Source: Corynebacterium freneyi (GTDB taxonomy: Bacteria; Actinomycetota; Actinomycetes; Mycobacteriales; Mycobacteriaceae). From it: 64,000 nt of DNA. Every line of letters starts with the position of its first letter. Positions within the stretch are counted from its first letter, which is position 1. Shown one piece after another: positions 20 to 64,000 of this stretch. The position numbers and the translations under genes are program-made. The DNA lies in NCBI RefSeq assembly GCF_030408835.1, contig NZ_CP047357.1, positions 992,001 to 1,056,000 of the forward strand, read 5' to 3'. The notes below the pieces were generated by a model. That model searched no databases, was not told the DNA's origin, and saw nothing but the letters and a program-made list of their open reading frames with translations.

Positions 20-1080
20 CACAGCCACTTGTTGCGGCGCAGCAGCCATACCAGGAACGCGACGATCCCGGCCATGATGAGCAGGACGATGTAGTACCCG
101 TACTCCCAATGCAGCTCGGGCATGCGGTCGAAGTTCATGCCGTAGATTCCGGCCAGTGCGGTCGGCACGGCGAGGATGGCGGCGTAGGCGGAAATGGTGC
201 GCATGTCGGTGTTCTGCTGCAGCTGGATCTTCACGGCCGCGGCGTCGATCAGGGCGGACAGACGCTCGTCGAAACCCTGCGCCATGTCGGCGGCGACGAG
301 TTGGTGGTCCAGGACGTCCGACAGGTAGCGGCGGACGGACTTCGGCATCAGCTGGCCGCGCATCGCCATGATGGAGCGCAGCGCCGTCGTCAGCGGGTCG
401 ATGGCGTGGCGCATCTCCAGGATCTCGCGCTTGAGGATGTAGATGTCCTCGATCTCCGTGATGTATCCCGGCTCGAAGACGTCGTCTTCCATGTCTTCGA
501 CGAGTTCCTCGAGCTGCTGGACGGTGCGCAGGTAGTCGTCGACGAGGTAGTCGGTGATCGCCCACAGCACGCCCGCCGGCCCCGGCTGGATCAGCTCGGG
601 GTCCTCGGCCACGCGTTCGCCGAGGATGCTCAGCGCCTCGCGGGCCATGCCCATGCGGATGGTGATGATGTAGTTGCGCCCCAGCACCATGAGCAGCTGG
701 CCGGTGTTGATCTTCTCGTTTTCGTCTTCCTCCGTGCCGTCCGGGTTGTAGTGGACGGAACGGATGACGAAAACCATGTGGTCGTCGTGAATCTCGACCT
801 TCGGGCGCTGCCGCTGCGTCAGGGCGTCCTCGACGGTGAGCTCGTGGAGGCCGTACTCCTCGGCGATGGCGTCCATCTGCACCGCGTTCGGCCGTGACAG
901 CGACAGCCACACGAAACCTTCGCCGCGGTTGCGGACCTCTTCGAGTGCGCTGCGGTGGTCGAATTGCCCCGGCAGGCGGTGCCCGTTGACGTAGACGCCG
1001 CAGTCGCGCATCGCGTCCTGCGCCGGCTCGAATGCTTTGCGACGATTCGTCCGCGGAGTCGGCCGGGGGGACGAGGGCAC
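19..1080 (-). CDS. corA: CorA-family magnesium/cobalt transporter
   Basis: This 353-residue protein is a CorA-type divalent-cation channel, expected to work as an inner-membrane pentamer importing Mg2+. It has the family layout: a long soluble N-terminal domain with an acidic helical region (EELVEDMEDDVFEPG), then two C-terminal membrane helices. The selectivity motif YGMN lies at the end of the first helix, followed by an acidic/aromatic loop (MPELHWEYG) and a basic C-terminus (RRNKWL). Length is typical. The start is GTG, with TAGGAGGT four bases upstream. The gene is divergent from a lipoprotein gene across about 160 bp. No Mg2+ leader element is recognisable. The proline/arginine-rich first 20 residues are probably disordered. 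Confidence 0.93.
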   Translation of the reverse strand: MPSSPRPTPRTNRRKAFEPAQDAMRDCGVYVNGHRLPGQFDHRSALEEVRNRGEGFVWLSLSRPNAVQMDAIAEEYGLHELTVEDALTQRQRPKVEIHDDHMVFVIRSVHYNPDGTEEDENEKINTGQLLMVLGRNYIITIRMGMAREALSILGERVAEDPELIQPGPAGVLWAITDYLVDDYLRTVQQLEELVEDMEDDVFEPGYITEIEDIYILKREILEMRHAIDPLTTALRSIMAMRGQLMPKSVRRYLSDVLDHQLVAADMAQGFDERLSALIDAAAVKIQLQQNTDMRTISAYAAILAVPTALAGIYGMNFDRMPELHWEYGYYIVLLIMAGIVAFLVWLLRRNKWL

Positions 1081-1242
1081 TGGGACCTCCTACGTGGGTA
1101 ATCTGGCGGCGTATTGCCGATTGACGGAAGCGAAGTGGTGAAGGCCGTGAGCGGTGCCGCGAAGATGACGGAGGTCCGGCGCATCGGAATGAGCTTACGA
1201 CGCGACCGGCGGTATCGCCGAACGGGTCAAGCACGGGGGGCA

Positions 1243-2010
1243 ATGCGCATGCGGGGTGCGGAGTCGACGGGGACGTCGACGGCAAGACTGCCGGTGATGC
1301 TGTCGGCGACGCTGGCGACGACCCTGGTGCTGGCCGGCTGCGCGTCCCAGGACCCCGCCGTGCCCGTGCCCGCCGAACAGTCCGAGCCGGTCGTCGTCGG
1401 CGCCGACGCGCGCATCGCCCAGCAGGCCGTCATGGCCGAGGTGTACGCCGGCGCGCTGGAACGGCGTGGTCGGGAAGCCGCGCCGGTCGTCGAGGTGCCC
1501 GCCGACGAACGGATGCTGGCCGTGCAGTCGGGGACCGTGACGCTGTCGTTCGGCTGCACCGGCGAACTGCTGGGGCTCATCGACCCGGCGACCGCCCGCG
1601 AACTCGCCGAGGAATACCTCGCCGACGACGACCCCGGCAAGGCCCTGTCCGCCGAATGGCGCGACCGCGTCTACGGCGCCATGTCGGCGGCGCTGCCCGG
1701 CGAAATCATGGCCACCGACCCGTCCAACGCGCAGGGCTGCGGCCGCGAGGACGGACTCGACGAGGACGAGGCGGCCGCACTCGAAGCACGCGTGGACGAG
1801 GACCCCGGCGCCGTGCTGCCGCAGCACATCGTGCCCTTCTACCTCAAGCCGGCGCTTACGAGGGCCGATCGCGTCAACGTCCTCAACCGCGTCGCCGGGT
1901 CGCTGTCGACCGAAGAACTCGACGACCTGACCACCCGCGTCACCGCGGGGGAAAACCCGTCGGAGATCGCCGCCGAATGGCTCGACACCTCCCGATTCAC
2001 CACCGGGTAG
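1243..2010 (+). CDS. Predicted lipoprotein of unknown function
   Basis: This 255-residue protein has a short basic N-terminus, a hydrophobic stretch and a lipobox (LVLAGC, Cys33), so it should be lipid-anchored on the outer face of the membrane. The start at 1243 is preferred over an in-frame start 43 codons upstream because it gives a normal lipoprotein signal and has a G-rich ribosome-binding site just before it. The mature part is acidic and mostly helical. Two cysteines (GCTGE and GCGRED) could form a disulfide. I recognise no enzyme motif. It converges on kgd, with a strong hairpin between them. Confidence 0.75.
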   Translation: MRMRGAESTGTSTARLPVMLSATLATTLVLAGCASQDPAVPVPAEQSEPVVVGADARIAQQAVMAEVYAGALERRGREAAPVVEVPADERMLAVQSGTVTLSFGCTGELLGLIDPATARELAEEYLADDDPGKALSAEWRDRVYGAMSAALPGEIMATDPSNAQGCGREDGLDEDEAAALEARVDEDPGAVLPQHIVPFYLKPALTRADRVNVLNRVAGSLSTEELDDLTTRVTAGENPSEIAAEWLDTSRFTTG

Positions 2011-2026
2011 ACGCCGGGGGAGGGGC

Positions 2027-62140: not shown

Positions 62141-62230
62141 CCGAGGTCGGACCCCCTTCCCGGCGCTTGCCGTCGGCGGGGCCACGCGGCGCAGTCAATC
62201 CACTTCCATTTCGACGACGAGGAACATCCC

Positions 62231-63304
62231 ATGGCCAATCAGGTTTCCGCAGTAGACGACATCCTGTCCGAATACCACGGGCTCGAGGCGCAGCTGGCCG
62301 ACCCCGAGCTGCACAACGACCCGAAGCAGGCGCGCCGGGTGGGCAAGCGCTTCAACGAGCTGCAGCCGATCATCCAGACCCACGCCAAGCTGACGCAGGT
62401 CCGCGACGACATGGAGGCGGCCCGCGAGATGGCGGCCGAGGACTCCGAGTTCGCCGCCGAGGCCAAGCGCCTGGAGGTGGAGGAGGAGGAGCTCGAGGAG
62501 AAGCTCGCCGACCTGCTGGCTCCGCGCGATCCGCACGATTCCGATGACATCGTCATGGAGATCAAGTCCGGCGCCGGCGGCGAGGAGGCCGCGCTGTTCG
62601 CCGGCGAGCTGGCGCGCATGTACCAGCGTTACGCCGAGAAGCACGGTTTCTCCACGGAGATCCTCGGCCTGTCGGAGTCGGATCTGGGCGGCGTGAAGGA
62701 CATGACCATGTCCATCCGCGCGAAGAATCCGTCGCGCGACGGCGCGTGGAGCGTGTTCAAGTTCGAGGGCGGCGTCCACCGCGTCCAGCGTGTTCCGGTC
62801 ACCGAGTCGCAGGGCCGCATCCAGACTTCCGCCGCCGGCGTGCTGGTCTACCCGGAGCCCGACGAGATCGAGGACGTGCAGATCGACGACAAGGATCTGC
62901 GCGTCGACGTCTACCGTTCCTCCGGCAAGGGCGGCCAGGGCGTCAACACCACCGACTCGGCGGTGCGCCTGACGCACCTGCCGACCGGCCTGGTGGTCAC
63001 GTGCCAGAAGGAGCGTTCGCAGATCCAGAACAAGGCCCGCGCCATGCAGGTGCTGGCCGCGCGACTGCAGCAGATGGCCGAGGAGGAGGCCGCGGCCAAC
63101 GCCTCGGACGCCCGCAAGTCGCAGGTCCGCACGATGGACCGGTCGGAGCGCGTGCGCACGTACAATTTCCCGGAAAACCGCGTGTCCGATCACCGCATCG
63201 GCTACAAGGCCCACAATCTGGACGCGGTTCTCGGCGGCGACATGGAGGATCTGCTCAAGGCCCTCCACGACGCCGAGCGCCAGGAGCGCCTGGAAGCCGA
63301 GTAG
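62231..63304 (+). CDS. prfA: Peptide chain release factor 1
   Basis: This 357-residue protein releases peptides at UAA and UAG. It has the GGQ loop in [20 protein letters not shown], the codon-recognition region [14 protein letters not shown] (PVT in place of E. coli PAT), and normal domain 1 coiled coil ([16 protein letters not shown]). Typical length. prmC starts 3 bp after its stop, so the modifying enzyme is co-expressed. Confidence 0.97.
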
Positions 63305-63307
63305 TCG

Positions 63308-64000
63308 GTGTCGGCTCCGTCGACCGTCGGGTCGATTCTTTCGGAGGTCGCGGCCGCGCTGGCCGACGCCGGTTGCGCGTCGCCGCAGGCAGATGCCGAA
63401 CAGCTGATGATGCACGTCAGCGGCCGGTCGCGCACCGACCTCATCCTGTCGCGCCGTGATCCGGTGGCGGCGGATGATCCCCTCGTCGCCGAGTTGCCGG
63501 CGCTGGTGGTCCGCCGCGCCGCCCGGGAGCCGTTGCAGCACATCCTGGGCACGGCGCCGATGGGCCGGTTGGAATTGGCCGTGGGGCCCGGCGTGTTCGT
63601 GCCGCGCCCGGAGACCGAACTCCTCGCCGAGTGGTGCATCACGGCGCTCGGGGATGTTGGGCTTGACGACGACCCGCATCGTCGTAAAGCAGGAGCACCG
63701 GCCGGGAACGGGCCCGTCGTGGTCGACTTGTGCACCGGATCCGGTGCGCTCGCGTTGGCCATCGCCGACCGGGTGCCCGCGGCATCGGTGACCGGCGTGG
63801 AACTCGACCCGGTTGCAGCCGAATGGGCGCGGCGCAACCTCGACTCCTGCCGCGAACTGTGGGCGGGGGAGGCCACGCCGCGAACCGGTGCGGTGCGCAT
63901 CATCGCCGGCGACGTCACCGACCCCGGCCTCGTCGACGGCGCCGACGCCCCGCTGGCCGACCTGCGCGGCCGCGTCGACCTCGTCGTCTCCAACCCGCCG
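63308..64000 (+). CDS. prmC: Release-factor glutamine methyltransferase (partial, cut by window end)
   Basis: The first 231 residues are visible, from GTG 63308. PrmC/HemK methylates the GGQ glutamine of release factors. Motifs: AAREPLQHILGTAPMGRLEL, FVPRPETELLAEW, SAM-binding VVDLCTGSGALALAIADRV, and the catalytic NPPY, of which NPP is the last thing in the window. Between AEW... and VVVDLCTG an unusual insertion of about 17 residues (GLDDDPHRRKAGAPAGNG) is encoded by an inverted pair of the CGTCGTCAAGC-type motif. Confidence 0.93.
   Translation, partial: MSAPSTVGSILSEVAAALADAGCASPQADAEQLMMHVSGRSRTDLILSRRDPVAADDPLVAELPALVVRRAAREPLQHILGTAPMGRLELAVGPGVFVPRPETELLAEWCITALGDVGLDDDPHRRKAGAPAGNGPVVVDLCTGSGALALAIADRVPAASVTGVELDPVAAEWARRNLDSCRELWAGEATPRTGAVRIIAGDVTDPGLVDGADAPLADLRGRVDLVVSNPP
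63661..63690. repeat. Inverted motif pair inside prmC
   Basis: GCTTGACGAC (63661-63670) and GTCGTAAAGC (63681-63690) form a stem with one mismatch and a 10-nt loop. It encodes part of the atypical PrmC insertion, consistent with a small hairpin element that entered in frame. Confidence 0.6.

Follow-up and report, generated by a model that had tools for sequence, protein, structure and literature searches.

The DNA uptake sequences (DUS) of the Neisseriaceae are, in the accessible parts of the papers describing them, roughly 10-13 bp long, occur in hundreds to thousands of copies in permissive or intergenic DNA, often as inverted pairs, and come in dialects that differ in a few bases, share an inner core and follow the genome phylogeny (PMC3630211, PMC12616744, PMC5031613). 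The uptake signal sequences (USS) of the Pasteurellaceae, as far as the accessible text of PMC1626085 goes, consist of a core flanked by AT-rich stretches, originate from substitutions rather than insertions, and fall into two clade-wide types, competence being ancestral with losses. Here, a 64-kb stretch of the Corynebacterium freneyi genome (contig NZ_CP047357.1, positions 992,001-1,056,000, forward strand; referred to as the window) is found to carry many copies of a short gapped motif, CGTCG-NN-AAGC. This motif is most likely a genus-wide self-DNA tag working like the DUS and USS, a reading to which we assign a probability of about 0.6.

The likeness to the DUS concerns the short length, the high copy number, the dialects around an inner core that track phylogeny, the permissive and intergenic sites and the inverted pairs, whereas the sequences are unrelated (ATGCCGTCTGAA for the DUS) and the host is an actinobacterium with Tad-locus genes, in which no ComP-like receptor was found and no T-run terminators were seen, the uptake function being our proposal. 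With the USS it shares a core with adjacent AT-rich segments, an origin by substitution and clade-wide types, but the USS sequence (AAGTGCGGT) is also unrelated, the phylum and the envelope are different, and the Corynebacterium motif comes in three or more forms, with a free dinucleotide inside it. Since the sequence is unrelated and uptake is something that we only infer, the motif is not assigned to the DUS or the USS proper. In Micrococcus luteus, transformation needs ComEA/ComEC and Flp pili, and the accessible part of the paper mentions no uptake motif for this species (PMC6370729); genes for the same actinobacterial combination are found in Corynebacterium, whose Tad pili may serve uptake. 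The literature searched, of which parts were seen, contained no report of the motif in Corynebacterium, the exact string CGTCGTCAAGCA not having been searched for; CRISPR-related pairs are given for Corynebacterium genomes in the accessible part of PMC5217627. In our estimate, the chances are slightly better than even that a sequence-specific system of its own for the uptake of self DNA exists in Corynebacterium, read by an apparatus of the Tad/Com type and comprising at least three dialects in more than 180 of the 242 species examined. Such a system would have originated independently of those of the Neisseriaceae and Pasteurellaceae, as the third of its kind and the first among Gram-positive groups.

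Enrichment and consensus of the motif

In the window, GTCGTCAAGC occurs 13 times, compared with 0.21 copies expected from 100 dinucleotide-preserving shuffles (the largest shuffle value being 2), and when one mismatch is allowed there are 48 copies, compared with 7.3 expected. The wider core CGTCG-NN-AAGC has 42 copies, nine of them outside the gene calls, which were made with a simple codon-score caller, such that "noncoding" includes uncalled genes and rRNA. The original prediction, which was made from the window, had listed 11 exact copies of GTCGTCAAGC; all of these are present, and two further copies on the minus strand, at 6544 and 28002, had been overlooked. Its near variants also exist, the one given as 52431 being the copy at 52421-52431, and its three inverted pairs (30458/30506, 52431/52488 and 63661/63681) are borne out.

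Over the 2.88-Mb genome, there are 245 exact copies of CGTCGTCAAGCA (127 forward and 118 reverse), compared with 3 of the reversed control. The top over-represented words of a 464-kb genome sample, consisting of the window and 20 evenly spaced 20-kb stretches, fit a single frame, CGTCG-NN-AAGC, in which NN is mostly TC, CA or TA and after which an A is frequent. The coding copies of CGTCG-(T/C)(A/C)-AAGC in this sample number 96, compared with 10.4 ± 3.1 in 60 within-gene synonymous-codon shuffles, and the noncoding copies 64, compared with 0.39 expected from a third-order Markov model. The codon-preserving shuffle had been named by the original prediction as a way of refuting it, and the idea survives this comparison. 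When the 63 noncoding copies with NN = (T/C)(A/C) are considered, the consensus extends to G-rich positions at -3 and -2 and to an A-rich stretch at +11 to +16, and no longer conserved sequence is seen around the motif in these copies; the consensus in this genome is roughly GG-N-CGTCG-(T/C)(A/C)-AAGC-A, followed by an A-rich stretch.

None of the 21 sampled stretches lacks the motif, which has 0.15-0.65 copies per kb in them, and the density of CGTCGYMAAGCA is about five times higher outside the called genes (0.54 per kb) than within them (0.115 per kb). Copies in genes have a strong codon-phase preference. A strand bias, which had been proposed for mapping, is absent: the sampled stretches have 53 forward and 53 reverse copies in the first chromosome half and 30 and 26, respectively, in the second half. 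Short-range inverted pairs are in excess (11, compared with no direct pairs, at 20 bp or less), and they concern few of the 879 copies.

Dialects and distribution

In the 242 Corynebacterium genomes that were compared, CGTCGNVAAGCA, which represents the CGTCG form, has at least 60 copies in 167 genomes (median 258), 30-59 copies in seven and fewer than 30 in 68, and the strand totals over the 167 genomes are 23,618 and 23,496. De novo counting in the "negative" species revealed a dialect with a one-base change in the core, GGCATCG-(A/G)C-AAGC, and some species are thus low for the CGTCG form because they use this GCATCG dialect. Its representative GCATCGRCAAGC has at least 45 copies in 17 of the 242 genomes (range 47-429; strand totals 1,658 and 1,703), a classification that took in only genomes with at least 18 copies, and G052 is the only genome that is high for both forms (80 and 156 copies). 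A further pattern, CRTCA-NN-AAGC-A, reaches 357 copies in G239, 87 in G124 and 61 each in G041 and G208, the other genomes having at most 47; at the sampled loci the CGTCA form is found in G239 and G041, and three CATCA copies are found in G124. At two loci of G041 (L088 and L102), CGCGGCGTC is strongly over-represented, with 22 copies in 37 kb, and it is apparently the extended upstream part of the CGTCA dialect. About 57 of the 242 genomes are below the cut-offs for the tested dialects. These cut-offs (60 for the CGTCG form and 45 for the GCATCG form) were chosen by eye, and the seven genomes with 30-59 CGTCG copies exceed their own controls, such that "low-motif" does not equal "motif-free".

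Four dialect classes were mapped on a tree of 60 species calculated from three neighbouring genes, with G052 being classed as GCATCG. All 15 sampled GCATCG species are in one 17-member clade (support 1.0), beside the low-motif species G014 and the CGTCG species G044. The four classes need 9 changes on this tree, compared with a mean of 25 and a minimum of 19 after shuffling, so the dialects largely follow the phylogeny, with the exception of G044. Base composition is not the cause of the motif, the bearers of the CGTCG form spanning 48 to 74% GC at the sampled loci.

Other genera of the order have nothing on this scale. In 199 other genomes of the order, CRTCGNMAAGCA has at most 71 copies (in 8.9 Mb), compared with 616 in the 2.88-Mb genome of the window, and in some other genera low counts are still above those of their reversed control (67 compared with 31 and 20 compared with 1 being examples). 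In a scan of 72 loci of other actinobacterial taxa, at most two copies of any form were found, and of eight Corynebacterium loci in the same scan five show clear enrichment, one has 4 copies, and L113 of C. pygosceleis and L131 of a metagenome-assembled genome are not enriched.

Uptake sequences are expected to be rare in the phage and plasmid DNA of the group that uses them. Six plasmid and phage records were searched, the counts being those of the records by themselves. No CGTCG copies are present in the plasmids pCmus45274 (C. mustelae), pCstat1 (C. stationis) and pET44827 (C. aurimucosum), which together comprise 119 kb; phage phi673 has none and phage BFK20 has one, and the CATCG form is absent from both phages. 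The mixed case, and the only enriched record, is pTP10, a plasmid of C. striatum, in which seven CGTCG copies are confined to 5777-13119, a segment whose limits were drawn after the copy positions had been seen. This segment has 67% GC and annotated genes of chromosomal appearance, and the copies lie among tetAB and the genes for dihydroorotate dehydrogenase, UppP, mshC and phosphoribosyl-ATP diphosphatase. The remainder of pTP10 (about 41 kb with 57% GC, carrying insertion elements, resistance genes and replication genes) has no CGTCG copies and two copies of the CGTCA form.

Conservation, uptake genes and competing explanations

When copies at orthologous places of sister species are compared, most of the aligned ones are seen to have been gained or lost by substitution, and gaps in or beside the motif occur at some noncoding and poorly aligned sites. 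The core is kept at 86 of 144 aligned orthologous copies, whereas 300 scrambled patterns are kept at 226 of their 826 sites (Fisher p = 1.8e-13), in a comparison of nine ordered species pairs that were partly counted in both directions. This excess comes mostly from the pairs G016-G061 and G045-G232 and is weaker in the clade of the window itself. The column identities are 92-98% for CGTCG, 75-89% for AAGC, 71-72% for the two N columns and 67-92% for the flanks.

These data bear on a small mobile or expanding repeat (a repetitive extragenic palindrome, a miniature inverted-repeat transposable element or an insertion footprint), which was one half of the original prediction. The many copies, some short-range inverted pairs and the gaps at some noncoding and poorly aligned sites would agree with such a repeat, but no conserved sequence extends past the motif in the 63 noncoding copies, no longer unit with conserved ends was found, most aligned orthologous sites differ by substitution and not by insertion or deletion, and the codon-phase preference in genes is strong. 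There is also no clear excess of gaps: in comparisons with GCATCG-dialect species, gaps are found at 2.6% of the motif sites and at 6.3% of random windows, and with low-motif species at 11.8% and 9.1%, respectively, in a test that covered TadA, the neighbouring helicase and TadZ. This explanation is disfavoured, and we consider it very improbable. It had also been suggested that coding copies often fall at insertions or protein ends; as a general rule this is not supported by the gap rates of these three genes or by the 96 coding copies, whose distribution along genes does not differ from uniform and has no bias to the gene ends (Kolmogorov-Smirnov p = 0.27).

Genes for an uptake machinery are almost universal in the genus: ComEC is found in 241 of the 242 genomes, a ComEA-type helix-hairpin-helix domain in all 242 and a T2SSE ATPase in 239, the curated cut-offs of the latter two being exceeded in 231 and 235 genomes, respectively, although the literature searched gave no report of natural transformation. 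Old work on the transformation of Bacterionema (now Corynebacterium) matruchotii is said to exist. Among the matches listed, in-frame stops are seen in ComEC of G145 and in ComEA of G036, both of which are low-motif genomes, and the ComEC match is in two pieces in three CGTCG genomes (G001, G043 and G242); damage of com genes therefore gives no clear pattern with the motif. Being nearly universal, the competence genes do not separate the motif classes and were rejected as the explanation of the presence or absence of the motif, a discrepancy that is partly resolved by the use of another dialect in many "negative" species.

All 60 fetched Tad loci match TadZ, TadA, Flp, TadE and TadF, about nine Flp rows of the alignments and the TadF rows of G061 and G134 being visibly wrong or broken fragments. 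Pilin receptors with motif specificity are exemplified by ComP and predicted for PpdA/ComN. Past the membrane helix, most minor pilins of the 60 Tad loci are slightly acidic, and none of those aligned tracks the motif. No receptor is identified among them, as they show no clean separation of the species classes.

The motif is orientation-free and, with about 57 of the 242 species below the cut-offs, seemingly dispensable; its copies turn over by substitution around a constrained core, it has clade dialects, it is near-absent from the tested mobile DNA, and its genomes have ComEA/ComEC and a Tad locus. A self-DNA uptake tag is favoured because this is the profile of the DUS and USS as given in the accessible parts of PMC3630211, PMC1626085 and PMC12616744. 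The other half of the original prediction, a protein-binding or uptake motif, fits the data: the copies number in the hundreds and lie on both strands, their core is conserved, the dialects largely track the phylogeny, the tested plasmid and phage DNA is nearly free of the motif, and competence genes are almost genus-wide. We infer that uptake is the step at which the motif is read, that the Tad and Com proteins serve this step and that a receptor exists, presumably at the pilus. It is possible that a surface receptor coupled to the Tad-type pilus and to ComEA/ComEC binds the core C[G/A]TC[G/A]-NN-AAGC, by which tagged, that is conspecific, DNA would be taken up preferentially. Recombination of tagged DNA would then spread new copies born by point mutation, which would pile up wherever the coding constraint allows, and the dialects would drift by single-base changes together with the receptor.

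Several observations weigh against a self-DNA uptake tag. Genomes below the motif cut-offs possess the ComEC, ComEA-type and T2SSE genes as well, so these genes do not track the motif, and in a phylogeny-blind ranking of the 60 loci no minor-pilin column cleanly separates the motif-bearing from the low-motif species (the best column having a total variation of 0.86). No report of natural competence in Corynebacterium was found in the literature searched. The dialects and the tree are not fully matched, the CGTCG species G044 being inside the GCATCG clade with a support of 0.945. In the pair G095-G249 the core is kept at 5 of 14 sites, no higher than in the control (20 of 51). The conservation of the first A of AAGC (75%) falls short of the average of the flanks, and the gap rate in the comparison with low-motif species is slightly unfavourable. 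No T-run is seen by eye in the 28 listed inverted pairs; given this and the few copies in such pairs, a terminator role in the style of the DUS and USS is not seen.

The explanation that is next in weight, and which we consider unlikely, is a site bound by a cytoplasmic protein with a role in shaping or marking the chromosome (a nucleoid protein or a segregation or replication factor), the copies being kept for that role. The conservation of the core above the scrambled controls, the spread over all 21 sampled stretches and the resemblance of a 9-base core with a free NN to a bipartite protein site are in agreement with it, but no candidate protein was found, the site seems dispensable in view of the species below the cut-offs, and a directional system of the KOPS type would show strand skew. 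RecBCD Chi sites and KOPS/FtsK-orienting sequences are skewed along the replichores; the equal strand counts agree with neither. The KOPS type was rejected on these counts, and RecBCD Chi because the RecC family (PF04257), which the same search finds in E. coli, is absent from all 242 genomes. A Chi-like recombination signal in a broader sense, which stops or redirects a nuclease-helicase processing DNA ends and thereby protects self DNA, is less likely still. The frequency and the coding location would be compatible with it, and the specificity of such an enzyme could conceivably drift into dialects, but the lack of strand skew and of RecC speaks against it (the search having been for RecC and not for enzymes of the AddAB/AdnAB type) and, to our knowledge, the AddAB-type Chi sites are shorter than 9 fixed bases. 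There is also the precedent of HIP1 (GCGATCGC), a very frequent short word of cyanobacteria that is highly over-represented and is low in exceptional genomes, according to the accessible part of PMC4390886. A mutational or methylation-linked bias of this type would accumulate a word without any binding function, but HIP1 is palindromic and tied to methyltransferase sites, whereas the Corynebacterium motif is asymmetric and gapped with dialects, and its core is retained between species rather than merely accumulated, the inner NN being free. Such a bias appears improbable, more so than a Chi-like signal.

If the motif is indeed a self-DNA uptake tag, it would add to the two known cases a third one that is unrelated to them, from a genus of actinobacteria that includes commensals, pathogens and industrial strains, and it would indicate that this trait evolves repeatedly. 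It would also suggest that natural transformation occurs in Corynebacterium, for which the literature searched gave no report. The reasons for the existence of uptake motifs and the co-evolution of a motif with its receptor could then be approached by comparison over 242 genomes, with their dialects, one two-dialect genome and many low-copy lineages. If the function is a different one, the genus still holds a conserved site that is unexplained and can reach hundreds of copies in a genome.

Copies and other repeats of the window

The copies of the core in the window are listed in Table 1, and several other repeats are present between them.

Table 1. Copies of the motif in the 64-kb window of C. 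freneyi, with positions counted from the first base of the window.
Copy	Position	Strand	Location	Remarks
copy CGTCGCAAAGC(A)	1034..1044	-	noncoding	
copy CGTCGTCAAGC(A)	2026..2036	+	noncoding	
core copy CGTCGGCAAGC	4138..4148	-	coding	
core copy CGTCGGCAAGC	4888..4898	-	coding	
core copy CGTCGAGAAGC(A)	6193..6203	+	coding	
copy CGTCGTCAAGC	6544..6554	-	coding, ABC transporter	absent from original list
copy CGTCGTCAAGC(A)	8717..8727	-	coding, ABC transporter	
copy CGTCGTCAAGC(A)	8860..8870	+	coding, ABC transporter	
core copy CGTCGGAAAGC	10090..10100	+	coding	
core copy CGTCGGCAAGC(A)	11825..11835	-	coding	
copy CGTCGTCAAGC	13540..13550	-	coding, Asp/Glu-rich stretch	may be partly compositional
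copy CGTCGTAAAGC(A)	16124..16134	-	coding	
core copy CGTCGTGAAGC	16593..16603	+	coding	
core copy CGTCGGCAAGC	21355..21365	+	coding	
core copy CGTCGAAAAGC(A)	22063..22073	-	coding	
copy CGTCGTCAAGC(A)	22380..22390	+	noncoding	
core copy CGTCGGCAAGC(A)	23431..23441	-	coding	
copy CGTCGCAAAGC(A)	24576..24586	+	coding	
copy CGTCGTCAAGC	28002..28012	-	coding	absent from original list
core copy CGTCGTGAAGC	28405..28415	+	coding	
copy CGTCGTCAAGC(A)	30458..30468	-	noncoding	inverted-pair arm flanking GC-rich hairpin
copy CGTCGTCAAGC(A)	30505..30515	+	noncoding	partner arm of 30458 copy
core copy CGTCGTGAAGC	32170..32180	+	coding	
core copy CGTCGTGAAGC	33333..33343	+	coding	
core copy CGTCGAAAAGC(A)	33997..34007	-	coding	
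copy CGTCGTAAAGC(A)	36788..36798	+	noncoding	
copy CGTCGTCAAGC	38954..38964	-	coding, SNF2-type helicase	match below curated cut-off
copy CGTCGTCAAGC(A)	40652..40662	+	coding, SNF2-type helicase of 38954 copy	
core copy CGTCGGCAAGC(A)	41459..41469	-	coding, SNF2-type helicase of 38954 copy	
core copy CGTCGACAAGC	43771..43781	+	coding	
core copy CGTCGGCAAGC	45420..45430	-	coding	
copy CGTCGCAAAGC(A)	48162..48172	+	noncoding	
copy CGTCGCAAAGC(A)	49961..49971	-	coding	per codon-score caller
copy CGTCGTCAAGC(A)	50050..50060	+	coding, C-terminal part of LutB/LldF family gene	match just below cut-off
core copy CGTCGCGAAGC	50176..50186	+	coding, LutB/LldF family gene of 50050 copy	
copy CGTCGCAAAGC(A)	52421..52431	-	noncoding	inverted-pair arm
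copy CGTCGTAAAGC	52487..52497	+	noncoding	partner arm of 52421 copy
copy CGTCGTAAAGC	55247..55257	-	coding	
core copy CGTCGCGAAGC	58199..58209	+	coding	
core copy CGTCGAGAAGC	59252..59262	+	coding	
copy CGTCGTCAAGC	63661..63671	-	coding, PrmC-like	match below cut-off; gene cut by window end; arm of short inverted pair
copy CGTCGTAAAGC(A)	63680..63690	+	coding, PrmC-like gene of 63661 copy	partner arm

Another short repeat, AAACCACGGGGT, is clustered and has an inverted arrangement: nine copies, four forward and then five reverse, are packed into 26693-26938, close to where one called gene ends and the next begins; it also occurs five times in locus L053 and three times in locus L054. At 23686-23871 a 62-bp unit, the core of which is an inverted GACGAGTGTGC/GCACACTCGTC, is present three times in tandem, and GCACACTCGTC is also found five times in locus L044 and twice in L054. 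A degenerate 17-bp tandem repeat (GTGTGTCGATCCACCCC-like) with at least eight units is present at 11084-11270. The region 60152-62140 encodes Rho with a long low-complexity insertion rich in Asn, Gly, Arg and Asp, the family model spanning residues 14-646 with 410 model positions.

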